The position numbers and the translations under genes are program-made. Positions 29,601 through 64,000 of a stretch of DNA of 64,000 nt are shown here, in pieces. Below the pieces are notes generated by a model, which worked only from the letters and a program-made list of their open reading frames with translations, was not told the origin of the DNA and did no database searches. How positions within the stretch are numbered: position 1 is the stretch's first letter; every line of letters starts with the position of its first letter. This stretch comes from Bacteroidota bacterium (lineage in GTDB: Bacteria; Bacteroidota; Ignavibacteria; Ignavibacteriales; Melioribacteraceae): assembly GCA_018829205.1 (NCBI GenBank), contig JAHJUE010000022.1, forward strand, positions 62,001 through 126,000. Reading direction: 5' to 3'.

Positions 29601-30486
29601 ACCAAAGTTCCTCGTATATTTCAGAGATGTCTACCTTCGCTATCATAATCCAAGGAGTGTTATTAACAGGAACTATATCGGCAAGCACGTCAACATTTCT
29701 ATAATCCTTTGCTTCAATTATTCCTGTTTTATCTTTAAACGCCAGACTTGCTAAAATTTCATTATTAGAATCCGGGATTTTAAGCGATATGTTTAAATTA
29801 TTTTTAAAACGAAGATTATTTAGATATTCAACATAACCGTTATTTTTTCTTACAAGAAGAGTTTCTCCTGTTTTATAAGGCATTGGCCATTTCTGAATCA
29901 GCGGGAAAAGGAAATCATTCGGATTTATACGGAATAAAAGTACGGCGATGCATTTATCGTTATTAAAAATCGGGGCTAAAATATCGAAATGAATACAATT
30001 GTGGGTTTCACAAGTATAAAAATCGCTGAAAATTATTTCTCTTTTCTCAAATACCTTATCAGCAAAATCAGAAGTTATGGAATCAATTTTATAATTTTCA
30101 GCATATAAATTGAAAATAAAAGAGCTTTTATCGGAGATGATAAATATATTCTGATACTTATGATTAACAGCTATTGTGGAAAGCGTATTAGTAAAATACT
30201 CTTTTAATGATTTTGAATTTTTATCCGATAAAAGCTTTTGCGTGTTTTGAATAAATAAATCATCGCTTGAAAAAAACTCGGCTTCGGAAAGTCTTTCGTT
30301 TTTCCATTGAATAAGATCGGCAACCTTTAATTCCGCGATAGCTTTTAAAACGCTGTGTTTCTCAAATCTAATATCACCGGCTTCGTGATTATAATAACTA
30401 AAACCGCCGGCGACTACAATAAAACTTAAAACGAGAGTTATAATTATTAATGGTTTTTTCTTCTGAAGGATTAACTCTAGTTTCAT
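23632..30486 (-). CDS. Giant sensor histidine kinase, about 12 PAS domains and one GAF
   Basis: This is a 2284-residue protein. Transmembrane helix 1 is at about 12-32, an extracytoplasmic Cache-like sensor at about 35-290, and helix 2 at about 295-320. PAS domains begin near residues 345, 475, 600, 720, 845, 960, 1080, 1205, 1325, 1615, 1740 and 1895, with a GAF domain at about 1455-1610. A short coiled coil (KHHLENLVDERTGQLKTIN) precedes the last PAS. HisKA has His2070 in SMASHEFRTPLTSIRIF, and HATPase shows NLLSNAVKYS, DSGIGMS and GTGLGLS. I chose ATG 30486; an upstream TTG (30504) would add six residues. There is no receiver domain; the adjacent LytTR regulator is the likely target. Positions are estimates. 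Confidence 0.88.
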   Translation of the reverse strand: MKLELILQKKKPLIIITLVLSFIVVAGGFSYYNHEAGDIRFEKHSVLKAIAELKVADLIQWKNERLSEAEFFSSDDLFIQNTQKLLSDKNSKSLKEYFTNTLSTIAVNHKYQNIFIISDKSSFIFNLYAENYKIDSITSDFADKVFEKREIIFSDFYTCETHNCIHFDILAPIFNNDKCIAVLLFRINPNDFLFPLIQKWPMPYKTGETLLVRKNNGYVEYLNNLRFKNNLNISLKIPDSNNEILASLAFKDKTGIIEAKDYRNVDVLADIVPVNNTPWIMIAKVDISEIYEELWFRALFIILLSGLSILLLAAGISFIYKYRQSGVYKSYLLKEKELRENEELFRITLYSIGDGVITTDAYGRVKHMNKVAEDLTGWKEADAQNKAIENVFDIINEDSRRKVENPVDRVLTEGLIVGLANHTLLVSKNGKVTSIADSGAPIKTENDEIIGVVLVFRDQTEEHKATRILEQSRNDLREAQAVAKLGNYVWEFSTNIWSSSDILNEIFGIDQNYNRSLEGWANIVHPDFREMMLNYVTNEVIAKKQRFDKEYKIVRVFDGIERWVHGLGELEFDEQNNPVKLFGTITDITERKNYELNLKRSEEDYKTLFNQGHDPIIIFVPEDETILDVNDKACHVYGFSKEEFIGMSLTKISNNINAGKERINTVINDGWIRGFETTQFKKDGSEIIVEINATKINYQNRVAILSTNRDITKRKKAEEKLIENEERMRVIVEGTPNLFFYTQDAAAKIKYISPSVEKITGHKVKDWINESHWFITDNEINKLAIEYTHKHLKGEFTSAPINVEIQHADNYAILLEVYENPIIKNGIVTGLQGVAHDITARRKAEIALAESEELFRKAFLTSPDSININRLSDGLYVNINDGFTAITGYTKDEIEGKTSKDINIWVNPVDREKLVKGLKENGSVTNLEADFRLKDGSIITGLMSAVIINLNAVPHILSITRNIDEIKNAQLRVKESEELFRNAFTTIPDSISISSLDDAVFRNINEGFTKITGYTEEEVIGKSSSEINLWADEFEREKLIERLKKDGTITNFETRFRIKSGEILTGLLSASVLKLNGKLNILAVTRDITDLKLIEDSLRKNEEKYRIVADNTTDWIYWIDEQKQFRYISPSVTNVTGYTQFDFKNNSDLLTDIIFEEDRQNVISHFSNLLDSTVQICSKEFRIVTKQGHVKWIFHRCRAVMDENGKFLGRRSSNRDITELKEAEFKLKESEKKYRAFFENDLTGDYISTVDGELLACNLSFARIFGYKDVEEAMSSNMKNIYLDDAARESFLNLLKENRNLLNFEYEYKKITGEKIYLIENTYGIFDDKNNLVKLQGYIFDNTQRKTAELQLIESEKRFKGLFDNAKLGIYRGTPEGELLYGNKALFETLGYNSIEDLKKLKAGQLYVNPAEREKFKYEMETKGFVSGFEELFYKGDNSIIVISESAHTVKDGNGNIIYYEGILEDITEKKENINLIKMQSDLLFQLQSETDIDKILDIAISNIVSIGTIDCGGIYLIENNDLLLKVNLGLSESFVNKIKLVKNGSYQYNIVKNGLPVFADYNKLNLPDNDPGFIEGIKEIAVIPLVAEGKILGCINAASRKEKSFSESVQNALTSIGSILSEIIERLNIFNELKKSEEKFRLVFENEINGFAYHEIITDKNGRPIDYRFVNINKGFEKIVGKKADEIVGKTVLEIWPDTELYWINTYGEVALKQNPISFENYSAPLEKYFHVNAYSPVKRFFAVSFNDITQRVEQEKSIQKLQRAVEQSQVSIVITDTTGKIEFVNPKFEEVTGYKADEVIGQNPRILKSGEISKEDYKLMWHELTEGKDWSGLFHNKKKNGELFWESVNISPIKNNEGIITNYIAVKEDITEKVKSEKELIQYKHHLENLVDERTGQLKTINIKLAEEIRKQKEFDRQLQDQLFMLSTFIESMPTAAFIKDSGLKFIEINHAFIELAGKEKKDIIGKTVFDVFPLEAAEIMNKQDQQVLKEKCLKSFNMTFVDNNNHEKYFIIKKTIYQKAYGEFGGILGTYIDFSEHKKLQESIERNLASEKELNELKTRFISMASHEFRTPLTSIRIFSDLIIMQRDKNDKEKLSEYTEKIQNSVTYMTDLINDVLTMSRVETGKLVFAPDNVDLKSFLEEMMNEAKLYASSKHNLILNYNSRKKVIYADSKLLRYIVSNLLSNAVKYSPNGGDIISTVDIKNSNLILNIKDSGIGMSDIVMKNLFEPFLRGDNIGNIQGTGLGLSIIKKAVDLHKGQINCSSVINEGTSFTITIPIIEE

Positions 30487-30698
30487 AATAGTCCCAAACG
30501 GCAACTAAAAAGCGCTTAAGTTATATAATTCACCGGCTAGAATCTCAAATTCTGATTGAGAAATAATAACCAATCTTTATTTAATGTAAAAATCTATATG
30601 AAAGAATCGAACAAATCGCTTATTAGTTAATTTATTAGAGTAAAATCCGCATAATAATATATAAAAATAAATCAAAATATAACAAGACTATATTGTGT

Positions 30699-38932: not shown

Positions 38933-41128
38933 TTATTTTAAAAAATAATAATTTAATTTCCCGCCGGATGTAATTTCTTTGTGAGTAATATTTAACCTGT
39001 CGAGCAGTCTATTGTTCAATTCAATTTTATTAATTTCGTTAGGGGTCTTTGTATATTTTCTTATTATTACAAATTCATCGCCGGAATAATAGTCCTTGTT
39101 CAGTTTAATTGTTGATTTATAAAACAACGGAATCCCGGTTTGATAGTCTTGTGAAGCCGGACAAACAGGATAAAATCCTAGAGCCGAAAAAACAAACCAG
39201 CCGGATATTGTTCCGCAGTCGTCATTGCCCGGAAGCCCGTCTGCTTCAATTCCGAATTCATTATCTATTATACCTTTTACTATTATTTTAGTGCTGCTGT
39301 CCATTCCTTTTATATAATTAAAAAGATATGGATAAAAAATATCCGGCTCGTTGTTAATTGTGAATTGTCCGTTTCTAAACATTGTTAGTAATTTTGACGC
39401 GAAGTTTTCTTCGCTTCCGAACAAATCAATTAATCCTTGTATATCGTGGGGAACAAACCAAGTATAATTCCAGGCGTTGCCTTCTACATAACCGGGTCCG
39501 CCGGAACCTGCCCATTCTCCCGAACCCTCATTCTCCAATGGATTAAAAGGTTCGAGCCATTTTCCGTCTTTTAATCGGGGACGCATAAATTTAGTTTCAT
39601 TATCAAATAGATTTTTATAATTCATTGACCTATTAAAAAACTCTTTATAATTATTTTCTTTTCCGAGATATTTGGCAATCTGCGCAATTGTCCAGTCTGC
39701 AAAATTATATTCGAGAGAAGTTGAAACAGGTCCCCAAGCCCACCATTCGTTGGTCATATCCTGATCGAATGGAATGTAACCGTATTTAAGTAAATCATGA
39801 TAACCGGCTCGTACCGGCGGAGCTTTTTCATTTTCATTCAGAATTGTAGTTTCTAACATTGCTTCAAAAGCAGTTTTAATATCAAAATCTTTTATTCCTT
39901 TTAAATAACTGTCCGCAATTACGGGAACAGCCGGTTCACCTACCATCATGTACGTTTCGACTCCTGCCAGTTCCCACTTCGGCAGGAAACCGGATTCTTT
40001 ATACATATCTATCATTGTTTTAATCATGCCGGATTGTATCTCAGGATAAACAAGGGTTAAAAAAGGATGGAGCGTTCTATAAGTATCCCACAAAGAAAAA
40101 ACGTTATAACGGTTACGATCTTTATAATTACCAATTCCCGTTTGTCCCATTAAAGGGAAATCACCACTTACATCGTTAATAATATTGGGATGAATCAGCA
40201 TGTGATAAAGCGCGGTATAAAATTTTGTGTAATCGGAGCGCATTCCCCCTTCAACCATTATTCGCGATAAAACTTTTTCCCATTTTTTTTCAGCGGTGTT
40301 TTTTACTTTTTCAAAATCCCAATCCGGTATTTCGGTTTCCAAATTCAATTCGGCGTTATTAATACTTGTGTATGAAATGCCGGTCTTTAAATATATTTCT
40401 TCGCCTTTGTTTACCTTAAATGTATAACAAACCGCTAGTGAAGAATCATTAACTTCAGCAGAGCTTTCACTTATTTTTATATCATTAATAATTATAAATT
40501 TTGAATGACACTCCTTGCTGAACTTTGAACTGAAATAAATCTTTTCTCTATTTTCTTCTCCGCAAAAACCGCCGCTTATGTTATAGCCTTCCAAATTTGT
40601 GTGTGAAATAATTTCAATCATTCCGCCGCCCAATAAACCTAAACTTCTTCCGGCGTCTATAATTATTTTTATCTCTCCTTCTTCTTCTGAAATAAATTTG
40701 ATCAGACCGCATCTTTCTGTTGCAGTAACTTCAATATCAATTTTATAATCGTTTAGAGACACACGATAAAATCCCGGCAATGCTTTTTCATTAGAATATT
40801 TTGATTTATAATTCTGAGGATCGGAAGAAGCAACATCTCTTGTTGCAGTAACAATTATATTTCCAAGTTCTGCGCATCCTGTTCCGCTTAAATGTGTATG
40901 CCCCAGACCGTAAAAGTAATCTCCTCCTTTTATATACCCCGAAGGCGCACCCAAACTATTGTGCGGGCTGACGGAAACCATTCCCCACGGAACAACAGCG
41001 CCGGGGAAAGTATTTCCGCCGTTTGCGGTTCCTATAAATGGATTAACATATTGAGTCAGATTTTTATGTTGAGCTGAAACGGAAACAGTTAAAAAGAAAA
41101 ACAGAAGTATTATTTTTAATTTTTTCAT
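38933..41128 (-). CDS. Secreted GH92-type alpha-mannosidase
   Basis: This protein, about 731 residues after the chosen start, belongs to the GH92 alpha-mannosidase family, exo-acting calcium-dependent enzymes of periplasm or outer surface. ATG 41128 begins MKKLKIILLFFFLTVSVSAQ, a clear Sec signal peptide; an upstream start would add residues before it. The mature part opens QYVNPFIGTANGGNTFPGAVVPWGMV, the GH92 beta-sandwich start. Later motifs include LWDTYRTLHPFLTLVYPE and the helical barrel GMVSVSPHN-type loops. There is no T9SS sorting domain. Activity on alpha-1,2- or other mannosides cannot be predicted. Confidence 0.85.
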   Translation of the reverse strand: MKKLKIILLFFFLTVSVSAQHKNLTQYVNPFIGTANGGNTFPGAVVPWGMVSVSPHNSLGAPSGYIKGGDYFYGLGHTHLSGTGCAELGNIIVTATRDVASSDPQNYKSKYSNEKALPGFYRVSLNDYKIDIEVTATERCGLIKFISEEEGEIKIIIDAGRSLGLLGGGMIEIISHTNLEGYNISGGFCGEENREKIYFSSKFSKECHSKFIIINDIKISESSAEVNDSSLAVCYTFKVNKGEEIYLKTGISYTSINNAELNLETEIPDWDFEKVKNTAEKKWEKVLSRIMVEGGMRSDYTKFYTALYHMLIHPNIINDVSGDFPLMGQTGIGNYKDRNRYNVFSLWDTYRTLHPFLTLVYPEIQSGMIKTMIDMYKESGFLPKWELAGVETYMMVGEPAVPVIADSYLKGIKDFDIKTAFEAMLETTILNENEKAPPVRAGYHDLLKYGYIPFDQDMTNEWWAWGPVSTSLEYNFADWTIAQIAKYLGKENNYKEFFNRSMNYKNLFDNETKFMRPRLKDGKWLEPFNPLENEGSGEWAGSGGPGYVEGNAWNYTWFVPHDIQGLIDLFGSEENFASKLLTMFRNGQFTINNEPDIFYPYLFNYIKGMDSSTKIIVKGIIDNEFGIEADGLPGNDDCGTISGWFVFSALGFYPVCPASQDYQTGIPLFYKSTIKLNKDYYSGDEFVIIRKYTKTPNEINKIELNNRLLDRLNITHKEITSGGKLNYYFLK

Positions 41129-41155
41129 AATTATTAATGAGAACAATTTACAATT

Positions 41156-44529: not shown

Positions 44530-45411
44530 TTATTTGAAAACCGACAAATATTCTTCGAAGAATTTTTCTCTGTTCACATCAACAGCAACTTCATGCTTCT
44601 TAATTTCACTTTTGGGGAACCAATGTGTTAGTCCTCTTTCTTTTTCCTTTTCAAGCTCAATTGTTACAAGACCTTTTTCAAATTTGCAAATCGAATCGTT
44701 AAAGATTAAGGCTGCGGCGAGAGGATCGTGGAAAGTAATTACATCCCATTCTTCAAACCAAATTTTTGAAAAATCCAGTACAGGCATTAATAATTTATGA
44801 TTACAGATTTTCTTGAACTCGTTTGAATCCATCGTAACCCTTGAAGAAATATCAATCCCGATTGATTTATGAAAAGGAACATTTGCGCGGTAAACAATTT
44901 CTGTCGCGTGGTAGTCACCCATGGCGTTCCATTCAACATTGCTATATGCCGGTGCGTTTAAGTCAAACTTGCCAGCCATAGTAACGAGTCCTTTTAACAG
45001 AGAAGGAATTTCATGATCAATTGAAAAAAGAACAGCGATATTTGTAAGAGGTCCGATAGTAAGCAGCACTATTTCGTCGGGATTTTCGCGGATAATTCTT
45101 CGCATAAAATTAATAGCTTCATATTTTGGGAAAACTTTTTCATGAGACCATTTATTAAGCGCTTTTGCCTGTTGTGCTTTTTTCTGAAGCTGTTCTATAA
45201 TTAAAGGGTTTTCTATTCCCGGATAAATAGGAATATTTTTACCTGATATTTTGCAAAGTGAACTAGCAAGCATAGCTCGTTTATCTGATTCGCCTGTTAC
45301 CGTTGTTATACCTACTAACTCGCAGTTTGGGTTTGCTAAAAGATACGCGAGACAGATGGCGTCGTCAACATCTGTCCCTATATCCGTATCAAGTAATATT
45401 TTTGTTTTCAC
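44530..45411 (-). CDS. Inosine-uridine-preferring nucleoside hydrolase family protein
   Basis: This 293-residue enzyme of the nucleoside hydrolase family cleaves N-ribosyl bonds with a bound calcium. The calcium-binding motif DTDIGTDVDDA is at residues 7-17, and LTIGPLTNIA and FHDPLAAAL carry further conserved sites. The start is GTG 45411. It sits in the sugar operon between the binding protein and the dioxygenase gene, an odd place for a nucleoside salvage enzyme. It may release ribose or another sugar from an imported nucleoside-like compound; the substrate is unknown. Confidence 0.85.
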   Translation of the reverse strand: MKTKILLDTDIGTDVDDAICLAYLLANPNCELVGITTVTGESDKRAMLASSLCKISGKNIPIYPGIENPLIIEQLQKKAQQAKALNKWSHEKVFPKYEAINFMRRIIRENPDEIVLLTIGPLTNIAVLFSIDHEIPSLLKGLVTMAGKFDLNAPAYSNVEWNAMGDYHATEIVYRANVPFHKSIGIDISSRVTMDSNEFKKICNHKLLMPVLDFSKIWFEEWDVITFHDPLAAALIFNDSICKFEKGLVTIELEKEKERGLTHWFPKSEIKKHEVAVDVNREKFFEEYLSVFK

Positions 45412-52310: not shown

Positions 52311-55007
52311 TTAATTCTTACTTAAAAAAGTAAGAGTAGGTTTACATTCTTCACTCTTTATATATTTTATCAACTCAGTAAACAAAGTTTTTGTATATGG
52401 GTCTTCAGTTTTCTTAAAGAAATCAAAAGTTGTTAAGATTAATTTCCCGTTTCCTATTTTTATTTCTATTAAGTAAGCCGAATTCATATGCAGCCAGCCG
52501 ATAAACATTCCTGATAAAACATTATCAAAGTATTCCGCGTTAATTCCCGTTAAAACATATTTTGGGAAAACATCGTATGCTTCAAAACCCATGGTATTTC
52601 CGAGATTAATATTTTTAAACGGGCTTTTGGAGTTATCAACCCAGCTCAGTGCCGACGCCCAGTTTCCGTCGAGCCATTCGGAATTTCTCGATTTTATCTC
52701 AATTGGAATTTCATCAGTAAGTACGGTGTTGCTGTCAATTATACAAATTGCATTAGCACCGTTTCTAATTTTACTTAATAGAAGCGAATCAATGGATTGG
52801 GAAATTATAACATCATTATTTTCACCTTCTGCAATTTTGCCAATTTTATAAGTACCAGGGAAAATATAAACTTCAGTAAAGTTTTCAGACAAAACTATAC
52901 TGTCCTTTTCAAGAGTGAATTCAATTTTTAGTTTTCGCGGAATATTTGTTTCGCCCACATTTATTTTTATTTCTGCCGCTTTCTGTACATCTGCGTTTTT
53001 TATACTAGTTAACTTTATTGAGTTTTCATAACCGTCGGAAGTTTTATATTTCAACAAAGAGTTCGATAAATTTTCCCCGCTGAAATTGGAAATTGATATT
53101 TCTACCACAGCAGTATCCTTTTCCCAATAATTATATTTTTCTGTTCTTGGTATTATTATATCGGGCTGCTGAATTTTGTTTAATTTTTTTGAACCGTATT
53201 TATAATTCCGCCACATATCCAGCAGACCATTTACTTCCCAGTTTATATCGGTAAATTCCGTTATAACATAACCTTGAATATCTTTAGCAAGTCTGATTTC
53301 TTCTATTTGCCATTTTAATGCATTATACTGGGCTATCTGACTTGCTCCAGCTAATTCATTATATGATTTAAATATGCGGTTCAGTTTATATTTGTTGAAT
53401 CTTTCATAAACACCTTTAGGCATTGATACATCAATATCAATAAATTGCCTGTCAAACCAGAACGGAAGAGCATCAGGAAGAATCGGCAAGCCCCAATTTC
53501 CAAATTCAGATATCATTATAACTTCGTCGCCGGTTTGATGTGAGTCTCCGAAATTACTGAACAGCCAATCAGGTCTATTTGCAACATCCTTAATCGTATT
53601 TGAAAAATTTATTTTATTTTCCGGAATAGCCCAATAAGTGTGATAGTCATTTATATCAGTTTTGAGATGAAAGTTGCCCCAGCATGCGCTGTTATCAACT
53701 ATTAATCTTCCCGCCGCTTTCTCTTTAGCATAATCAAATTCATTTATTAGCCACTCTCTTTGTTCTTTTTGATTTAAATCGATTCCCCAGCTTTCATTAA
53801 TAATACTAATTACACATAAAGACGGATGGTTCCAATCCCTTTCAAGCATACGATCAAATGTAGATCTTGCTCTTGATTTAACGCTCTCATCAAAGAAATC
53901 CCAATTTGGTATTTCATACCAAACCAGTATACCAAGTTCATCGGCAAGTTTTAAATAATTTTTATCCGGAATTTTTATGTGACACCGCAAAGTATTTAAT
54001 CCCATTTCTTTCGCTTTAATAATTTCATCACGTAAATATTCTTCCGAAGGTGTTGTATAAATTGTTTCGGGATAAAAGTCCTGGTCGAGCGCGGAAATCA
54101 TATAAAAAGGTTTCCCGTTCAAATAAAATTTTCCGTTCTCTTTTTTAAATTCTCTAAAACCGTATTTGTCTTCGTACGTTTCACCATTATAATTTATTTT
54201 TATAGTGTAAAGATTCGGACTTTTTAATTCCCACAATTGCGGTTTTAATATTTCACCGGAAATAATTTCAGTTATACTATCTGCTTCTTTATTAAATTGA
54301 AAAACTTCTTTTCCTTCCGGCGAATAAATTTTCAACTCAAAATATTCTTTCTGTGAAACGTCATTAAAATCAAAATCTATTTTTGCTTCAAATTTCCCGC
54401 TGATATCTGAGTTTATTTTTACTGTCTTAATAAAATTGATCGGTTTAATTTTTAAAAATACATCCTGCCAGATTCCGCTGCACTGAACATACCAGCTTTG
54501 TTTACCGTGGGGTATATGCCAGTAACGAATTCCGTCGGTTCTTTGCTCTTCAGCAGTCGGGTCATTAACCCTTACTAATATTTTGTTATCTCCTTCTTTC
54601 AAAGCTTCTGTAATATCAAATGAGAAAGGTGTATACCCGCCTTCATTTTCTCCAATAAATTTATTGTTTATATAAACTTTTGATAAATAATCAACCGCTT
54701 CAAACTCAAGAATATATCTTTTACCTGTTTCAATTTTAGTAATTGTTAATACTTTTCTGTACCAGGCAATACCCTGGTAATCGAGGAATCCTTCGTTTAC
54801 TATATGCCATGTTGAAGGTACGGTAATGCTTTGCCAACCTATTTTTTCATCGACATCATTATTAGTGAATTCATTAAGGGTATCTTTCAGTATTTCCCAT
54901 TCACCGTTAAGATTCATTACTTGAGCATTTACAAATTGTTTTGTCATAGTCAGCAAAATTAAACTCATTAAAAATATTTTTGGGATATTTAGCGAAGTTT
55001 TATTCAT
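52311..55007 (-). CDS. Secreted GH2 glycoside hydrolase
   Basis: This protein of 898 residues has a GH2 layout: jelly-roll domain (about 30-200), immunoglobulin-like domain (200-290), and TIM barrel (from about 295) with acid/base Glu405 in IINESWG and nucleophile Glu501 in ISEFGNWG. These two sites mark beta-galactosidase, beta-mannosidase or beta-glucuronidase-type enzymes. ATG 55007 begins MNKTSLNIPKIFLMSLILLT, a signal peptide ending near ANAQ-like FVNAQ. The C-terminal 250 residues are a further beta-rich region. The ATG shares one base with the stop of the preceding gene. Sugar specificity is not decided. Confidence 0.87.
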   Translation of the reverse strand: MNKTSLNIPKIFLMSLILLTMTKQFVNAQVMNLNGEWEILKDTLNEFTNNDVDEKIGWQSITVPSTWHIVNEGFLDYQGIAWYRKVLTITKIETGKRYILEFEAVDYLSKVYINNKFIGENEGGYTPFSFDITEALKEGDNKILVRVNDPTAEEQRTDGIRYWHIPHGKQSWYVQCSGIWQDVFLKIKPINFIKTVKINSDISGKFEAKIDFDFNDVSQKEYFELKIYSPEGKEVFQFNKEADSITEIISGEILKPQLWELKSPNLYTIKINYNGETYEDKYGFREFKKENGKFYLNGKPFYMISALDQDFYPETIYTTPSEEYLRDEIIKAKEMGLNTLRCHIKIPDKNYLKLADELGILVWYEIPNWDFFDESVKSRARSTFDRMLERDWNHPSLCVISIINESWGIDLNQKEQREWLINEFDYAKEKAAGRLIVDNSACWGNFHLKTDINDYHTYWAIPENKINFSNTIKDVANRPDWLFSNFGDSHQTGDEVIMISEFGNWGLPILPDALPFWFDRQFIDIDVSMPKGVYERFNKYKLNRIFKSYNELAGASQIAQYNALKWQIEEIRLAKDIQGYVITEFTDINWEVNGLLDMWRNYKYGSKKLNKIQQPDIIIPRTEKYNYWEKDTAVVEISISNFSGENLSNSLLKYKTSDGYENSIKLTSIKNADVQKAAEIKINVGETNIPRKLKIEFTLEKDSIVLSENFTEVYIFPGTYKIGKIAEGENNDVIISQSIDSLLLSKIRNGANAICIIDSNTVLTDEIPIEIKSRNSEWLDGNWASALSWVDNSKSPFKNINLGNTMGFEAYDVFPKYVLTGINAEYFDNVLSGMFIGWLHMNSAYLIEIKIGNGKLILTTFDFFKKTEDPYTKTLFTELIKYIKSEECKPTLTFLSKN

Positions 55008-56047
55008 TATATAATTCCGGTTTTGAATTGACTGAATTTTGTTTTCCATTTATTTATAAATTCAACTTCATCTTTTCTGAAATTATATCCAACCGAATCA
55101 CCTTTGAACTCATTTATATACCAGTCTATAGTTGAAGGCATCCATTCATTAAAAGGTGTTGATGTAAAATTTATATCCTTTTTAATTTTTTCTGTACTAA
55201 AAATCGCGGTTGTGTATGTGTTAAATGGAAACGCGTGCCCTCCGTTAATAATACTGTACGGCAGTTTTTCAAATACCTCGATATCTATGTTTATTCTTTC
55301 GGGATTTTTGTTCAGCAATTTGCAGAGACTGTCGAGATAATCATTCAATGAAAATATCTCTTCAGCCGCGACGTTATATGCTTGTCCGATTGTTTTTTCG
55401 GTTTTAATTATATCAACAAATGCTTTTGCCAAATCATTGACGTAAACATGGTGGGATGCATAGTCACCAGAGCCGGGTATAAGTAAAGGATTGCCGTCGA
55501 GTATTCTTTGAATCCAAAAGTAATCTCGTATAGCTGGATCGTGGGGTCCGCAAACATACGGCGGACGAATTATTGTTACCGGAAAATTATTATTATTGTG
55601 GGCATTCCACAAAACATCTTCACATTTTCTTTTATCAATTCCGTATTGCATACCAAAAGGATTTCTTCCCCAGAATTCCATTAAGCATCCTTTATCTTGG
55701 TCTTCGGTAATCGGGCATTGAAATTCTTTTGAAACCATATAAACCGAAACAGTGCTTGTGTGAATAAACCTTTTGGTTTTCCCGTAAAACACTTCGGCCA
55801 TTAAAGCCGATTCATCTTCAGTAAAGGCTGCAAAATCATAAACAACATCAAAATTATAAGATGCAGCTTCGATCATCTTACTTTTATTGTGTCGATCTGC
55901 GTTTATAAATTTTAAATTATTATTTTGCGCTGAACGGTTTTCAGTTTTACCTCTGTTAAAAATTGTTACTTCATGTCCTTCATTCAGAAGCATTTCAACA
56001 ACATATGAACTTATAAAACCTGTTCCGCCGATTACTAAAATTTTCAT
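55007..56047 (-). CDS. NAD-dependent epimerase/dehydratase (extended SDR)
   Basis: This is a 346-residue nucleotide-sugar-type epimerase/dehydratase. The NAD-binding motif GGTGFISSYVVE is at the N-terminus, and the catalytic Tyr-Lys pair is in FGMQYGIDKRKC. HTSTVSVY supplies the Ser/Thr. It acts on a sugar, or a sugar-nucleotide, in the cytoplasm. The stop TAA overlaps the start of the GH2 gene by one base (TAATG). The substrate is unknown. Confidence 0.85.
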   Translation of the reverse strand: MKILVIGGTGFISSYVVEMLLNEGHEVTIFNRGKTENRSAQNNNLKFINADRHNKSKMIEAASYNFDVVYDFAAFTEDESALMAEVFYGKTKRFIHTSTVSVYMVSKEFQCPITEDQDKGCLMEFWGRNPFGMQYGIDKRKCEDVLWNAHNNNNFPVTIIRPPYVCGPHDPAIRDYFWIQRILDGNPLLIPGSGDYASHHVYVNDLAKAFVDIIKTEKTIGQAYNVAAEEIFSLNDYLDSLCKLLNKNPERINIDIEVFEKLPYSIINGGHAFPFNTYTTAIFSTEKIKKDINFTSTPFNEWMPSTIDWYINEFKGDSVGYNFRKDEVEFINKWKTKFSQFKTGII

Positions 56048-56110: not shown

Positions 56111-58447
56111 TTATTTTACTAGTATCATTTTTTTTGTGATTACTTTGTTTCCGAATTCAATTCTGTAAAAATAAATCCCGCTTGCCAGCTGTGAGGCGTT
56201 GAATTCGGTATAATGAATTCCCGCATTTTCAAATTTATTTACAAGAGTTTGAACTTCGCGTCCAAGCAGATCATAAATTTTTAATTTCACATTCCCGGCT
56301 TCGGGTAAAACAAACTTAATTATTGTCGAAGGATTAAACGGGTTAGGATAGTTTTGGGCAATTTCCAACTCAGTCGGTAAGGTTTCTTCTAAATTATGAA
56401 TTCCCACAACAGTATCAATAGAATCTGCCAGATGCAGAATTCTTGTTATATAACCTTGAATCGGAATTGTTAAGCTTGTTAAATCATTTACCGTTGCAGT
56501 AAATGATTCTCCGCTCATTAAATCGGTTAAATAATATTGTGTATCGGGATTTAAATTTAATTCATCAACTGGAAAAGAAAGCTTAACATTTGCTGGATTC
56601 TTTCCCATATTAATTACAGTGAACAAATTTTGATTTTCATTCCATCTTCTGAAGGCAAAACATGTATTGCTGCCCGATAAATTCACTTCATTAAAATTTT
56701 CTGTAATTAGTGCCGGAAAATCTTTTCTTATCTCAATTAATCTTTTATAATAATTGAATAACCCGTATTGACTTTGCCCTTCAATTGATATACCCGGGAT
56801 AAAAGTTCTCTCAGTACTGTATGGATGCCCCGACAATCCTGTTTCCTGCCCGTTATATATAAGAGGAATTCCGTTCAGTGAGAACATTAAAGATGCCGCC
56901 ATTTTTGTCTGCTCAACACTATGGTGAGTTATAAAATGGAATACATCATTGTTTTCCATAAATCTCAATATTTTTGCGTTGGGCACATAACCGCTGCCGA
57001 AATTTGATAATGAATTTCTAAGCATTCCCGGTCTGCTGCTTTCGCTTCCTTGATTAAAAATAGTAGGATTAGAATTTTCACTATAAAAAGTATTCCAAAC
57101 CCAATGAGAGACCCATGATTCTTCAGGCGCCCAATCATAAGCTGCGTCAAAGCGTTCATCGAAAGTTTCGGGCCACGTTGCTTTGTCTTCAGCCAATAGA
57201 AAGACATCCGGCTTTATTCTTTTTAATGCAAGCCTTAGTTGTTTTGTAAATTCAGGCGCTCTTGCCGTTACGCCCCATATCGCGTCAAATCGATATCCGT
57301 CAATATTATAATTATCAATCCAGTATTTCGCGGCTTCTATCATCCAGTTCCATACTTCCGGATTATCGTAATTAAACATTATTAGATCCGTCCAGAAATA
57401 ATAATAGAAACCGCGCGAATTTTTATTATAGTGTTGAGAATAAGGAGCATTGTCGTCGATGTGTTTATAAAAATTATAATAATGGGAATCTTCGCCGTAT
57501 TGAATAGCATCTTTATAATAAGGGTGCTGGAATGAAGAATGATTAGCAACAAAATCAAACAGAACCCTCATACCAAGCGATTTGGCAGTTGAGATTAATT
57601 CACTTAATTCTTGTTCAGTACCAAGATCATTCCGCAAGTTAAAATAGTTTGTAATATCGTAACCTTGTCCACCTCCGTAAGTACTAAATACGGGTTGAAT
57701 CCAAATAGTATTTATACCCATTCTACTTAATTCAGGCAGTTTATTTTTAATATTTACGTATTGATTAAAAAACGAAAAGGTATAAGGCGTTATACAGTAT
57801 ACAACGGCGCTGTCAATCCACGCTGCGTAATCTGTTTTAATATTAAAAGGAACTATAGTTGAATCTTTATAGGTAAAATATGTTCTAGCTTTTGAAGTAT
57901 CATTGTCAGCATCAACAACAAATAAATCGAAATAATATTCACCTTTCATCAACTCGGCATTATAAATAACTGAAGTATACGGGGAGGAATGATCAGCTAT
58001 TTCTCCAATAACGGGATTTTTTTCATCTTGACGCCAATAATACGTTAAAATATTTGACTCAGGATTTGAAACTATATCTGAATGAAGAACAATACTTGCA
58101 GCTTCCGCCGTAATGTATGCATAAACTTCAGGTATAATTTTAAAATTAACTGTCAACAACAAGGTGTCTGACACAACAACACCTGATGAATCATTAATTA
58201 CGGCATATATTTCATTAACGCCTTCGCCTAAATTTATTACTACCGAAAACGAATTTGATTCTACACTAAAAATATTCGGCTGAGAGTTTACATAAAGAAT
58301 TCCATTCGATGCTGTAAAGTCAACTTCTCCATTAATAACTTGTGTGCGTGACCAAACGACAGCATTCTTTTTTTTAAGCTTAACTTCAGAAGCATAAATG
58401 TTTAGAGTTAAAAAAAACAATAAAAATAATTGATAACAAAAGCGCAT
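56111..58447 (-). CDS. Secreted GH13 alpha-amylase with T9SS sorting domain
   Basis: This 778-residue protein starts MRFCYQLFLLFFLTLNIYAS, a signal peptide. Beta-sandwich repeats (about 20-195) precede a GH13 barrel with all four regions: DFVANH (I), DGYRFDAIWG (II, nucleophile Asp), LLAEDKA (III, Glu) and MENNDVFH (IV, Asp). The C-terminal about 90 residues hold IAQNYPNPFNPSTIIKF and LGREVQTLVN, then GIYFYRI: the type A sorting domain that sends proteins through type IX secretion to the cell surface. It is the clearest lineage marker in the window. It acts on alpha-glucans such as starch or glycogen. Confidence 0.92.
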   Translation of the reverse strand: MRFCYQLFLLFFLTLNIYASEVKLKKKNAVVWSRTQVINGEVDFTASNGILYVNSQPNIFSVESNSFSVVINLGEGVNEIYAVINDSSGVVVSDTLLLTVNFKIIPEVYAYITAEAASIVLHSDIVSNPESNILTYYWRQDEKNPVIGEIADHSSPYTSVIYNAELMKGEYYFDLFVVDADNDTSKARTYFTYKDSTIVPFNIKTDYAAWIDSAVVYCITPYTFSFFNQYVNIKNKLPELSRMGINTIWIQPVFSTYGGGQGYDITNYFNLRNDLGTEQELSELISTAKSLGMRVLFDFVANHSSFQHPYYKDAIQYGEDSHYYNFYKHIDDNAPYSQHYNKNSRGFYYYFWTDLIMFNYDNPEVWNWMIEAAKYWIDNYNIDGYRFDAIWGVTARAPEFTKQLRLALKRIKPDVFLLAEDKATWPETFDERFDAAYDWAPEESWVSHWVWNTFYSENSNPTIFNQGSESSRPGMLRNSLSNFGSGYVPNAKILRFMENNDVFHFITHHSVEQTKMAASLMFSLNGIPLIYNGQETGLSGHPYSTERTFIPGISIEGQSQYGLFNYYKRLIEIRKDFPALITENFNEVNLSGSNTCFAFRRWNENQNLFTVINMGKNPANVKLSFPVDELNLNPDTQYYLTDLMSGESFTATVNDLTSLTIPIQGYITRILHLADSIDTVVGIHNLEETLPTELEIAQNYPNPFNPSTIIKFVLPEAGNVKLKIYDLLGREVQTLVNKFENAGIHYTEFNASQLASGIYFYRIEFGNKVITKKMILVK

Positions 58448-58456
58448 TAAAAACTC

Positions 58457-60106
58457 CTAACTTTTTTGACCGGGCAAATGATTCCAGCTTTTTAATAATT
58501 CTTGCAATCTGTAATATGAACGTTTAGGAGTTGCGTCTTCTCTAACTAATCCACCGTTTCTTATAAACGGCCTGAAGTCTGAGAAATCATACCAATTAAT
58601 TGCTTTGATATTTTGTCTTGAATAGTACAAAGTAAAAACTTCTTCGAGCCAATCGGCTTGAAGTTCTTCGTCCCATCTGCGGTGCCAATCGTAAGGCGCA
58701 TCTTCGATATCAGCTTGATCTAATTTTATTGATTGTTCATCATAACCAGCCGAGGCACCAATTTCAGTTATATAAATTGGTTTATTGAATTTTTCAAATG
58801 ATTCTAATTTTCTTACAATATCCGATAGATCACGGTATGGGAAGTAAATTTGAACACCGAGAATATCAAATTCTACTCCTGCCTCAACTAAATCCTCAAT
58901 AAATTTTCTTGGTGAGCGTAAAGGTCTGCCAGCTTGTTCTTTTTGTCTTGCGAATCTTCCTCGAGCGGCGTATTCTGCCCAAGGACAGCAGTTATTAATT
59001 AATCTTTTGACGTTAGGATTAGTTTCTTTTGTTGTGTTAAGAGCTAATCTCGCAATCTCAGTAATTTGGTCTTCGGTATGATTGTGAACGTTTGCCCAAT
59101 CATGATGTTCATTTATAACTTCCCAAGAAGATATTTTATCGCCGTAATGTGATACCAGATCCTGCGTGTGTTTTTTAACATAATCTTTCACTTGTGAATA
59201 GTTTTTATCCTTGAGCCAATCGGGTGTAACAACAGGATGAAACCAGAATAGTGGTCTTCCTTCAATTTGAATATTATTATCGGAAAGCCAGTTAACTATA
59301 TTATCCTTTATCCCCCAATTATAAACTCCTTCTCTTGGTTCAAAAACTTCGTACCATGTATCCCAAACATAATGTGTAATAGTAGCAAAGTTAAAAAGTT
59401 CAACAAAACGTTTCGTCATATCTTCCGACTTAGCCCAAATATATTGGCGGGTTTCGCATCCGAAATGAACTTGTTCCTTTCTTTTGTATTTTAGGATATT
59501 AAACTTTGCAAATTCGAGTTCAATTTTTTCTCCGGCCCATAAAGCGTACATCAAACAATTATTTGAAATCTCTCCGCATTTATTGCCATTATTAATATTT
59601 TTTGTTGCATCTTCAAAAAGATTTTCAGAAAGGTCGGAAAGATAATTAACTTCAGCAGAAAATATAATACCGCTTTTCTGATATCGTTTTTTAACATTGC
59701 TGTTTCTAGTTATTCTGCTCTTTGCGAATTCATAATTTAAATTCAAAGACTTAGAAAAATCCTTATGTGTATAAAATTCTCCTCCATTATCGGCAGATAA
59801 ATAAATATATCCGAATCCTTCAATAAACCATCTAGTGTTAACAGAAAATTTCTTGCTGCCTAGATTATCCGGAATATTAATTCCGTCGCTATTTACGGTA
59901 ACATCAGAATAAAACGGATCATCGCTTTCATCCGCGAGATAAACAAAATTTATAGGAGGCATCCATTTATGAGGATAAGGTATAAATGTCATTCCCCTGT
60001 TAGTTTTAGCGTAAATGTTAGATACGTTTGTAATAAAGGGTGAAACACCCAAAGCGCCGGATGCGATCACTGTGGATTTAAGAAAATTTCTTCTGGAATA
60101 ACTCAT
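58457..60106 (-). CDS. Tat-exported GH10-like protein, copy 1
   Basis: This is a 549-residue protein. MSYSRRNFLKSTVIASGALG is a twin-arginine signal; ATG 60106 is preceded by AAGGAGAATGT. A domain of about 180 residues (about 45-225; TRWFIEGFGYIYLSADNGGE) is not a GH family I know. The GH10-like barrel follows, with acid/base Glu333 in SWEVINEHH and nucleophile Glu448 in YITEIGASAG. Canonical GH10 residues are altered: GHTLVWH-type motif is GRPLFWFH, and the glutamine-histidine of the GLQSH motif is GVQIYF. Activity on a xylan-like chain is possible but not secure. Confidence 0.82.
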   Translation of the reverse strand: MSYSRRNFLKSTVIASGALGVSPFITNVSNIYAKTNRGMTFIPYPHKWMPPINFVYLADESDDPFYSDVTVNSDGINIPDNLGSKKFSVNTRWFIEGFGYIYLSADNGGEFYTHKDFSKSLNLNYEFAKSRITRNSNVKKRYQKSGIIFSAEVNYLSDLSENLFEDATKNINNGNKCGEISNNCLMYALWAGEKIELEFAKFNILKYKRKEQVHFGCETRQYIWAKSEDMTKRFVELFNFATITHYVWDTWYEVFEPREGVYNWGIKDNIVNWLSDNNIQIEGRPLFWFHPVVTPDWLKDKNYSQVKDYVKKHTQDLVSHYGDKISSWEVINEHHDWANVHNHTEDQITEIARLALNTTKETNPNVKRLINNCCPWAEYAARGRFARQKEQAGRPLRSPRKFIEDLVEAGVEFDILGVQIYFPYRDLSDIVRKLESFEKFNKPIYITEIGASAGYDEQSIKLDQADIEDAPYDWHRRWDEELQADWLEEVFTLYYSRQNIKAINWYDFSDFRPFIRNGGLVREDATPKRSYYRLQELLKSWNHLPGQKS

Positions 60107-60120
60107 ACATTCTCCTTTTG

Positions 60121-61665
60121 TTATTTCAATTTTTTCCATTCGTTTTGGAGTTTCAATAATCTATCAACGGCTGCTTTTTTTTCACCTTTGTCTGAACGAA
60201 GAAGCCCTCCGCTTTTTAAGAAAGTCATTGGATCTACAAAGTCATACCAGTTAGCTGCTTCAATAAACGGTTGACTGTAACCATAAGTAAAAACATATTC
60301 CAGCCAGTCGGCCTGCAGTTCTTCGTCCCAGTGTCTTCTCCATTCATAAGGATGTTTTGAGAAATCTTCTGTTTCTTTATCTACAAACTCCTGAGTAATT
60401 CCCCGTGACGGAGAACCGATTTCAGCAAGCTGGACTCTTTTATTAAAAACTTTATATCGTTCGATTGCCTGTAAAGCCTCGGTTAAAGTTCTATGGACAA
60501 AATAGACCTGCATGCCAATGATATCAAAATTTACTCCCGCGTCAACTAACTGCTTGGTAAACTGATGTGGTGTACGTTGAGGATAAAGAGCGGGTCTATC
60601 GCCCCATTTACCCAGTTGAACATAATCTGCAAACGGGCAGCAATTATTAACAAGAAGCTGGACTTTGGGATTTGTATCTTTCGCAACTTCGCATGCAAAT
60701 TTAGTTAATTCAATTGTCTGTTCTTGATTTAACTCTACTTCATTTGCCCAATCGTGCATTTCGTTTACAATTTCCCAGGTCAATATTCTATCACCGTAAT
60801 GCGATATAACTTCACGAACATGTTTCTCAACATATTTTTTCAACTCATCATAGTTTTTCTTTTTAAGCCAGTCCGGGCTTACCCAAAAGTGGCTCCAAAA
60901 TAAAGGTCGGCCTTCAACTTTTATATTCCTTTTCAACAATTCATCTAAAAGTTTATCACGTTCAGAAAATTGTTTTTTCCCTTCTACCGGTTCAAAGTTT
61001 ATTACATCACCGATTAAATAATGTGTGATGGTGGAGTAATTGAACAATTCGGTAAAACGCTCAAGAAACAAATTACTATCCATTTGAAAATATCCGCGCG
61101 CGTCGCAGCCGAACAAAAAATCTTTCCTATAGCCGTTCTTCAAAACGTCATGTTTAGATTTTTCAATTTCCAATTGCTCGCTTGCAATCACTGCATGTTT
61201 TAATCCTGTTTGTGAATATTGCGCACAGATCTCATTGTCACTTTTATAATTATCAGCCGAACTTAAATATTCATCGCCAAGTTGAAGCAAATGATTTAGC
61301 TCTACAGAAGGTTTCCACCCGTCGGATCTAAACTTATTTAATCTTTTCCTGTTTCTTTCAACTCTGGTTTTCAACAATTCATAATTAAGATTAAAAATCA
61401 GTTCTTTGTTTTTTTCAATTTCATAAAATTCTCCGGCGTTGTCGCAAGGCATATAAAGAAAACCGTAACCTTCAACATTCCATCTGACGCTTATGCCGAA
61501 TTTATTTCCCTTAGTATCGGAAATCTTTATTCCAACATTGGTCAAAATTATATCTGATTTGAACGGATCACCGTTGATATCAAAAGATAAAAATTTATCT
61601 ATTATATGCGGTCCTCGCCCCTTCTGTACAAAATATGGCTTGAAAATAATTTCACCGGCTGCCAT
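60121..61665 (-). CDS. GH10-like protein without signal peptide, copy 2
   Basis: This 514-residue paralog begins MAAGEIIFKPYFVQKGRGPH at the point where copy 3 has its mature chain, so the signal peptide has been lost or the protein works in the cytoplasm. The same N-terminal domain (RWNVEGYGFLYMPCDNAGEF) and GH10-like barrel are present, with acid/base Glu302 in WEIVNEMHD and nucleophile Glu415 in QLAEIGSPS. AAGGGATATT precedes ATG 61665. There is a 14-bp gap to copy 1. It could act on an imported oligosaccharide. Confidence 0.8.
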   Translation of the reverse strand: MAAGEIIFKPYFVQKGRGPHIIDKFLSFDINGDPFKSDIILTNVGIKISDTKGNKFGISVRWNVEGYGFLYMPCDNAGEFYEIEKNKELIFNLNYELLKTRVERNRKRLNKFRSDGWKPSVELNHLLQLGDEYLSSADNYKSDNEICAQYSQTGLKHAVIASEQLEIEKSKHDVLKNGYRKDFLFGCDARGYFQMDSNLFLERFTELFNYSTITHYLIGDVINFEPVEGKKQFSERDKLLDELLKRNIKVEGRPLFWSHFWVSPDWLKKKNYDELKKYVEKHVREVISHYGDRILTWEIVNEMHDWANEVELNQEQTIELTKFACEVAKDTNPKVQLLVNNCCPFADYVQLGKWGDRPALYPQRTPHQFTKQLVDAGVNFDIIGMQVYFVHRTLTEALQAIERYKVFNKRVQLAEIGSPSRGITQEFVDKETEDFSKHPYEWRRHWDEELQADWLEYVFTYGYSQPFIEAANWYDFVDPMTFLKSGGLLRSDKGEKKAAVDRLLKLQNEWKKLK

Positions 61666-61687
61666 AATAATATCCCTTAATTATTAT

Positions 61688-63400
61688 TTAATGTTTAGCG
61701 GCTTCACGCCACATTGTTTTAAGTTGTTTTAACTTGTGATAAGCAAATTTCTTTTCGCCTTTTGTGTTAGCAAGAACTCCGCCGTTTTTTATAAATGAAT
61801 ATGGATCAACAAAATCATACCAATTGATCGCTTCGATCCAGGGTTTACTGTAATGAAGTGTGTAAATTTTTTCAAGCCAGTCAGCTTGCAGATCTTCATC
61901 CCAATGGCGGTGCCAGGTATAAGGCATTTCCGGTAAAGTTAATTCGCCGTTGTTTATGGTATCTTTTGACGGACCTGATGTTGTACCAATTTCAGTAACT
62001 TGAACTGGTTTTCCGTAACGCGTTAATCTTTCCATCATCCTAATTGTATCCGCTAAGTCGCGGTTAGTATATTGATAATATAATTGCTGTCCTGTAATTG
62101 TAAAATCAACTCCTGCTTCGTAGCACATTTTTATAAATTGGTGCGGCGTGATTAAAGGGAACTTTTTATCGAACTCATCCCAATTAATTATTTGAACATA
62201 ATCGGCCTGAAGACAGCAGTTGTTAATTAAGCGGTGTACATTAGGATTTGTATCTTTTGAAGTTTCAGCAATCAACTTTGCGATTTCAACCATTTGATCC
62301 GGGACAAGTTTTAATGCGTTCCCGAAATCGTGAGCCTCATTAATGATTTCCCACCCGTACATATCTGTGCCGTAATGCGAAACAACTTCACGCGTATGTT
62401 TTTCAACATACTTTAATAAATCCGGATAACTTTTATTAATTAGCCATTCCGGCGAACAGCATTCATCGGCCCAGAATATCGGCCTTCCTTCAACAGTAAC
62501 CCCGCGCTTTTTAAGTTCTCTTAGTTGTTCGTCGCGGTCTAGATATGTATACTTTCCTTCTTCTTTTTCAAAGCGGGGTAAATAGTGAGTTATAGTCGCA
62601 TAATTAAATACATCGGAAAACAAATCCATAAAAAGACTTTTCTCCATATGAGGATAACCTTTTGTATCGCATCCTATAAAAAAATTATCTCGGTATTTCA
62701 TTTGCGAAATATCAAACCATGCTTTATCAAGCTCCAGCATTTCGCCTCCCCACATTGCGTAGTACAATGCTTTTTGCGAAAGTTTTCCTCTCTTTAATTC
62801 ATCAGTTTCAATTTTATTGGATTCATAAATAAACTCATCACTTAAATCAAGAAATGTTTTTACTTCTTTATTGGGAAGATAATTCTCTTTTGAAAACTTT
62901 TTCAGCCTGTTATTGTTTGCTATAACTCTAGATTTGGCTAGTTCAAAATTCAGGTTTAAAGTTTTTTCATTTCCGATTTTAGGAAGCTCATAAAATTCTC
63001 CGCCGTTATCTGCGGTCATATAAATGTAACCGAATCCTTCAACATTCCATCGTACATTAATTCCAAATTTGTCCTTGCCTTCTGCGTCGGAAATAGTTAC
63101 TCCGTTGTTGTCCACCCAAATATTGGAATGAAAAGCGTCCCAATCATTATCGCTTGCAAAGGCCCAGCTCGGGAAATCCCATTCATGTGGTCCCATACTT
63201 TTTAAAGATTTTATACTTCCTAGATGTGGCCCTTTTCCTGTCTGCACTATATACGGCTTAAAAATTAATTTTCCTTTTTCAGTATTCATCATTGTTTTAT
63301 TTTTGGTTATAATTTCGGGTGCAGAAAACAATTGACTTGTCAATAACGTAGCTCCCAATCCAGCTACGGATGATTTTTTTAAGAATTCTCTTCTTTCCAT
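61688..63400 (-). CDS. Tat-exported GH10-like protein, copy 3
   Basis: This 570-residue paralog begins MERREFLKKSSVAGLGATLL, a twin-arginine signal. An extra 50-residue insertion (about 60-95) precedes the shared domain RWNVEGFGYIYMTADNGGE. In the barrel, acid/base Glu355 is in YGWEIINEAHD and nucleophile Glu470 is in VQVTEIGTTSG. The subsite changes are the same as in copy 1: GRPIFWADECC in place of the GHTLVWH motif, and ITGQQLYYQY in place of the GLQSH motif. The conserved LINNCC phrase replaces the usual NDYN loop. It is 22 bp upstream of copy 2. Confidence 0.82.
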   Translation of the reverse strand: MERREFLKKSSVAGLGATLLTSQLFSAPEIITKNKTMMNTEKGKLIFKPYIVQTGKGPHLGSIKSLKSMGPHEWDFPSWAFASDNDWDAFHSNIWVDNNGVTISDAEGKDKFGINVRWNVEGFGYIYMTADNGGEFYELPKIGNEKTLNLNFELAKSRVIANNNRLKKFSKENYLPNKEVKTFLDLSDEFIYESNKIETDELKRGKLSQKALYYAMWGGEMLELDKAWFDISQMKYRDNFFIGCDTKGYPHMEKSLFMDLFSDVFNYATITHYLPRFEKEEGKYTYLDRDEQLRELKKRGVTVEGRPIFWADECCSPEWLINKSYPDLLKYVEKHTREVVSHYGTDMYGWEIINEAHDFGNALKLVPDQMVEIAKLIAETSKDTNPNVHRLINNCCLQADYVQIINWDEFDKKFPLITPHQFIKMCYEAGVDFTITGQQLYYQYTNRDLADTIRMMERLTRYGKPVQVTEIGTTSGPSKDTINNGELTLPEMPYTWHRHWDEDLQADWLEKIYTLHYSKPWIEAINWYDFVDPYSFIKNGGVLANTKGEKKFAYHKLKQLKTMWREAAKH

Positions 63401-63417: not shown

Positions 63418-64000
63418 TTAGAGTGATTTAAATTTATTTTGAAGATTTATTAATCTTTCATATGCTGCTTTCTTTTCGCCTTTAGGAGATTCCAACAACC
63501 CTCCTCCTTTAATCCATGAATAAGGATCGACGAAATCATACCAATTAACAGCTTCAATCCAAGGTTTGCTGTAGGCTAATGTATATAATCCTTCTAACCA
63601 GTCAGCTTGAAGTTCCTGATCCCAAGGTCTATGCCAAATATATGGTTCTGTTTCAATACCAAGTCTGCCTGAATTTATAGAATCTTTAGTAGGACCCGAA
63701 GAGGCGCCGACTTCGGTTAATTGGACAGGTCTTCCAAACTGTTCATGACGTTCAACCAGCATTATTGTGTCTTGAAGATCACGATACGGGAAATACATTT
63801 GCTGTCCGGTAATTGTAAAATCAACACCGGCATCATTTAATTCCTTCATAAATTTTACGGGAGTTCTTTGCGGATAAGTGGCGTCAAGTTCGCCCCATTT
63901 TTTCAACTGAACATATTCTGCAAAAGGACAACAATTATTTATCAATCTATGAACTTTTGGATTTATTGATTTAGCGACATCACAAGCCAGTTTTGCAACT
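63418..64000 (-). CDS. GH10-like protein, copy 4 (C-terminal part; cut by window edge)
   Basis: Only the C-terminal about 194 codons are in the window; the frame stays open to base 64000, and the start and acid/base residue lie to the right. The visible part has LINNCCPFAEY, FTITGQQMYFPYRDL and nucleophile Glu in VQLTEVGASSG, so it is the same family as the three copies downstream. The end TEPYIWHRPWDQELQADWLE resembles the others closely, suggesting recent tandem duplication. Confidence 0.8.
   Translation of the reverse strand, partial: VAKLACDVAKSINPKVHRLINNCCPFAEYVQLKKWGELDATYPQRTPVKFMKELNDAGVDFTITGQQMYFPYRDLQDTIMLVERHEQFGRPVQLTEVGASSGPTKDSINSGRLGIETEPYIWHRPWDQELQADWLEGLYTLAYSKPWIEAVNWYDFVDPYSWIKGGGLLESPKGEKKAAYERLINLQNKFKSL

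Follow-up and report, generated by a model that had tools for sequence, protein, structure and literature searches.

What is the segment that precedes the barrel in a row of GH10-like genes, and is it a working part of these enzymes or a separate module attached to them? The question arises from a stretch of 64,000 nt, here called the window, from Bacteroidota bacterium (Melioribacteraceae; assembly GCA_018829205.1, contig JAHJUE010000022.1, positions 62,001-126,000). The initial annotation had noticed there a block of about 180 residues shared by three complete copies, matched by no carbohydrate-binding module (CBM) that it recognised and strictly retained in a copy without signal peptide, and had therefore assigned it to the enzyme's working unit. 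By computation we establish the domain itself, its fold prediction, its coupling to the barrel, the order of the array, the conserved residues and the pattern of leaders.

A tandem array of barrels with a common N-terminal domain

All copies in the window lie on the minus strand. Copy 1 (58457-60139, 560 residues, PF00331 at 1.8e-22) and copy 3 (61688-63400, 570 residues, 1.9e-14) each consist of an RR leader, the N-terminal domain and a GH10-like barrel. Copy 2 (60121-61665, 514 residues, 3.2e-18) has the same two domains and no leader, and its frame overlaps the start of the copy 1 frame. Copy 4 (63418-63999) is a barrel fragment, as the window edge cuts the gene and leaves its N-terminal domain beyond the edge. 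The PF00331 scores of the complete copies (80.4, 66.5 and 54.1 bits) exceed the gathering cut-off of 22.1; the cut copy 4 fragment reaches 19.4 bits, and the full genome search puts all five copies above the cut-off. The block profile locates the N-terminal domain, again on the minus strand, at 59468-59992 in copy 1 (E 7e-86; contig coordinates 121468-121992, the window offset being 62000), at 61117-61650 in copy 2 (E 5e-91) and at 62681-63268 in copy 3 (residues ~45-240, E 1e-101), where short strands are followed by helices.

The pattern RWxxEGxGxxYxxxDNxGEF, read from the translations, indeed stands ahead of the barrel in all three complete copies. Their blocks align over ~175-196 residues with 41-44% identity to copy 3, which confirms the block as common to all three and brings its length nearer to 190 residues. 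Three complete copies is likewise correct for the window, and the genome total is five: a block profile search (E 1e-101 to 5e-64) found exactly five copies in a single tandem array at contig coordinates C15:121468-128635, with the blocks of two copies outside the window. The observation is thus real and the array continues past the window. A genome profile search for GH10 returned the same five genes and no others. Chance similarity or low complexity of the block was ruled out with E-values down to 1e-101, and W118, G124, E153 and R158 of the block are the same in each of the 92 complete frames. A literature search in open-licence papers found no publication on the domain or its array.

Beyond this genome, contigs of 84,980 species were scanned with two close-family motifs, which remote relatives would escape. 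The 27 resulting loci belong to Ignavibacteria and relatives, KSB1, Marinimicrobia, Calditrichota, Kryptoniota and Rhodothermia. Four whole-genome search sets, overlapping in part, contained the block in 8 of 58 relatives' genomes (six with five copies, one with three and one with two), 6 of 395 phylum-sample genomes (all six with five copies), 8 of 82 genomes of the phylum with the KSB1 and Calditrichota loci and 6 of 245 genomes of the Marinimicrobia phylum. Each of the 26 genomes reached by way of loci holds between two and five copies. Altogether 98 distinct block-bearing frames were read. Six are cut by contig ends and were left out of alignment and trees; the 92 complete ones all include the barrel. 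The profile search for the domain apart from the barrel, proposed in the initial annotation, accordingly returned no such protein among the frames read. A mobile module was also considered and rejected, as no barrel-less copy occurs among the frames read, the short frames in the genome searches are all cut by contig ends and the block is absent beside the other GH10 barrels tested. Among 30 pattern matches in a viral collection none was a relative, and plasmids gave two barrel-level matches only, at 22-24% identity. GH10-like proteins of Planctomycetota and other distant phyla may possess a helix resembling one in this domain.

Predicted fold of the domain and its probable place on the barrel

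AlphaFold2, run with 83 sequences, yielded a model of block and barrel together (copy 3, residues 43-570) with pLDDT 94.3 and pTM 0.92, and a model of the block alone with pLDDT 90.7 and pTM 0.86. In the block model, three helices (model residues 108-128, 136-154 and 159-191) come after seven short strands. With so high a pTM, the two-domain model points to a fixed position of the block on the barrel. We lean, with some reserve, towards a domain that is integral to the enzyme, at the N-terminus of a distinct subfamily related to GH10, and that occurs in exported and cytoplasmic copies alike. Its small beta part and three-helix bundle would pack onto the (beta/alpha)8 barrel, where its most likely role is to stabilise the barrel and to shape or cover the substrate cleft, and the domain would not be a free substrate-targeting module. 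That the block belongs to the working unit would fit this model and shared ancestry, the lack of barrel-less copies among the frames read and its retention in leaderless proteins. On the other hand, within a lineage the block is the more variable of the two parts (block versus barrel identity of 51 versus 70% in lineage A, 49 versus 67% in E and 61 versus 73% in C), as is common for accessory domains, and we count this against our main reading.

Searches with sequence and structure were in line with the earlier impression that the block matches no known binding module. A Pfam and NCBIfam scan of the window proteins recognised the GH10 barrel only, besides weak signal-peptide or chance matches. 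No CBM family was found in the blocks of 83 members with Pfam at E 0.1 or with NCBIfam at E 0.01, and the block profile had no match below E 0.1 among PDB sequences. The fold search that had been proposed along with structure prediction was performed with the confident block model as one query, and Foldseek found nothing in the PDB at E 0.001 or better; the viral models of BFVD likewise gave none at E 0.001. VIA-align did return matches to the block model (best Z 9.3, rmsd 2.4, 85 aligned), which qualifies the statement in so far as they cover mainly the helices (residues 91-194). They are arrangements of bundled helices, designed proteins among them, whose scores fall under the threshold that the tool itself sets as a warning for helical bundles, and were set aside.

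Could the strand part still be a carbohydrate-binding module that has diverged and that ties the barrel to a polysaccharide, the helix bundle serving as linker? The N-terminal part of the block model is mostly made of short strands, the weak Foldseek rows include Ig-like filamin domains (~50-70 columns, all E > 1), and the variability of the block relative to the barrel would fit such a role. We nevertheless consider this unlikely given the absence of CBM families and Foldseek matches at the thresholds above. Moreover, E153 and R158, two of the four invariant block residues, sit in the first helix, and leaderless copies, which would have little use for a polysaccharide anchor, retain the block. 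N-terminal CBMs do occur in GH10 enzymes, for instance in XynRA2 and Mros2091, with a domain of roughly similar size ahead of the barrel (PMC6539836, PMC3534657). The block of the array enzymes differs from these by the lack of a CBM match in 83 members, by three helices between strands and barrel and by its retention in proteins without leader.

The whole-protein profile meets 7d88 from profile position 141, in the helical region ahead of the barrel, which could raise the suspicion that the block is just a known kind of N-terminal extension shared with other GH10 xylanases. The structure matches listed for the full model are GH10-type barrels, some of them engineered, with alignments that start at model residue 179 or later. 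The nearest solved structures, 8b73 (AcXyn10A; Z 31.3, rmsd 3.2 over 307) and 7d88 (thermostable XynA; Z 31.0, rmsd 2.4 over 299), align from model residues 188 and 179, respectively, and hence past nearly all of the block. Likewise, the block profile stayed at E 0.17 or worse on 23 loci with other PF00331 matches from the same KSB1 phylum, and the PDB sequences gave nothing below the limit already stated, so that a known extension is hardly probable.

Active-site residues and the paralogous lineages

PF00331 matches 83 of 83 scanned members, and the predicted acid/base Glu355 (codon at 62336-62338, minus strand; copy 3 numbering) and nucleophile Glu470 (61991-61993, minus) do not vary in any of the 92 complete frames, the register being taken from the alignment to 1vbr. 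With this catalytic pair retained throughout, all copies appear competent in catalysis. AcXyn10A and XynA share the barrel fold and the catalytic glutamates with the array enzymes, whose extra N-terminal domain stays outside the aligned range. The array enzymes differ, however, by Arg and Tyr in place of two His and by Gly in place of the Asp after the nucleophile. Arg306 (codon at 62483-62485, minus) takes the position of the canonical GHTLxW His, as judged by alignment to 1vbr and by control GH10s, and Tyr441 replaces the His after a conserved Gln. Both replacements occur in 92 of 92 frames, which therefore lack the canonical active-site histidines at both positions. Gly472, two residues after the nucleophile, stands where the GH10 signature has Asp, again in 92 of 92, and none of the 92 members fits TE[LIY][DN], which we take to be the end of the GH10 nucleophile signature PROSITE PS00591. 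Among 30 control GH10 frames from the KSB1 phylum, 12 per motif did not fit the search pattern; the first motif was readable in 18, of which 17 have GHTLxW and one GRSLVW, and the nucleophile motif was readable in 18 and always reads TE, then L, M or I, then D.

With two signature features missing and the family profile and catalytic pair retained, a distinct GH10-related subfamily is the best-supported reading of the set. From these replacements we infer a substrate other than plain xylan.

The tree of the 92 proteins resolves lineages A (copy 1), B (copy 3), C (copy 4), D (copy 5) and E (copy 2). In the barrel-only tree A, B, D and E were recovered and C did not form one group; in the block-only tree A, B and E each form one group and C is mixed with D. 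Block and barrel thus appear to have been mostly inherited together. The mixing of C and D, which we count as a further point against an integral domain, probably reflects exchange of block sequence between neighbouring copies. Five D copies (L015, L018, L023, L027 and L017) have N-terminal domains that group with C while their whole proteins group with D, and exchange is probable here.

The copies share one strand in all 37 locus stretches examined, which include some genomes twice and one single-copy stretch. Their usual order is D-C-(B)-(E)-A with losses. Exceptions are two array types with B ahead of C, or of D and C, and one locus in which C and D are swapped; lineage A, where present, always comes last. 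The D-C-A array of one KSB1 genome ends with a decayed copy, a 93-residue lineage A remnant (L015:9095-9373). Residue 312 follows the lineages, being His in A (21/21) and E (18/18), Tyr in C (24/24) and Asp or Ala in B (11/11). Under the integral-domain reading, tandem duplication would have given rise to up to five lineages (D, C, B, E and A) with lineage-specific cleft residues, all of them presumably competent in catalysis.

Leaders, neighbouring genes and a possible glycan pathway

The copy described as lacking a signal peptide is copy 2, whose ATG lies about five residues ahead of the block. This is a general feature of its lineage: in a census of 30 arrays, some cut by contig ends, lineage E was leaderless and retained the block in 19 of 19 arrays, so that none of its 19 members has a Tat-like leader; another count gave 18 of 18. 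Tat-like leaders were found in 23 of 24 lineage A copies (one leaderless), 9 of 10 lineage B copies (one cut), 15 of 19 lineage D copies (four leaderless) and 15 of 27 lineage C copies, where eight are leaderless, one is cut and three have an RR motif without the usual start codon. The latter three (L055, L056 and L028) show no ATG, GTG or TTG shortly upstream, and they could have an unusual start or a decayed leader. The Tat call rests on the RR motif because the Tat profile scores stay below cut-off (TIGR01409 in copy 3, 16.5 versus 16.7; PF10518 in copy 1, 13.7 versus 22.7). TatC is encoded in the genome. Most copies would therefore, by their leaders, be exported folded via the Tat route, and lineage E together with some C and D copies would stay in the cytoplasm and act on imported oligosaccharides.

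Tat transports folded complexes, and a leaderless copy might accordingly leave the cell bound to a leader-bearing partner if the domain were an oligomerisation module through which the paralogues form a mixed complex. Co-occurrence of the paralogues on one strand and in conserved order would agree with this, as would the presence of at least one leaderless copy in 25 of 30 arrays and the distribution of leaders in lineage C, which is leaderless in 6 of 7 arrays without E versus 2 of 16 with E (Fisher p 0.0017, kinship ignored). The latter association comes down to a single phylogenetic contrast, lacks statistical independence and is no proof alone. In addition, an MFS transporter beside 19 of the 30 arrays gives the cytoplasmic reading a simpler role. 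We therefore regard a mixed complex as distinctly unlikely. A bolder version, in which a fold absent from the PDB assembles the five paralogues, the leaderless member included, into a Tat-exported periplasmic multi-glycosidase complex acting on a non-xylan glycan across phyla, seems very unlikely to us.

The coexistence of exported and leaderless enzymes has a parallel. XT6 and IXT6 of Geobacillus are a pair of extracellular and intracellular xylanases, and both structures are among those returned in this analysis. They resemble the array in that exported and leaderless GH10-type enzymes occur within one organism. In contrast to this pair, the leader-bearing and leaderless copies of the array are tandem paralogues with a common extra domain and altered GH10 signature residues.

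The genes around the array look like a locus that serves glycan use. In the window, the next gene after the array encodes a GH13-type protein with a T9SS sorting tail (56111-58447), followed by an NAD-dependent epimerase family gene (55007-56047), which is a recurrent neighbour, and a GH2-family protein (52311-55049), which recurs in nearer relatives; all three are on the minus strand. Families adjoining the 30 arrays are GH13 with T9SS tail (at least 19), MFS transporter (at least 19), GH42-like (at least 16), URO-D-like (at least 13), AP_endonuc_2 (at least 10) and epimerase (at least 9), these counts being lower bounds because the flanks are short. The MFS transporter of the cluster would be the likely importer of oligosaccharides.

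Some further observations concern single loci. A sulfatase gene lies between E and A in an array of the Marinimicrobia phylum (L159:12520-14034) and hints at a sulfated glycan there. Proteins of the URO-D family are often methyltransferase-like, and methylated sugars are possible where such a gene is found near the array (13 of 30, e.g. L022:10744-11937). An 839-residue protein (L026:1698-4214) is conserved near five arrays and has no Pfam match at E 1e-6. The window also contains GH92-family and nucleoside-hydrolase-family genes (38936-41146 and 44533-45411), both families being found beside some KSB1 arrays as well, and a 2290-residue minus-strand frame at 23632-30504.

Profile annotation would name the genes of this array xylanases because the barrel alone is recognised. 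The uncatalogued domain, the altered signature residues and the ordered array of paralogues point to another substrate and to work divided between the periplasm and the cytoplasm. Together with its neighbours (GH13, GH42-like, MFS and often URO-D or GH92), the array constitutes a testable glycan-pathway locus in little-studied bacteria.
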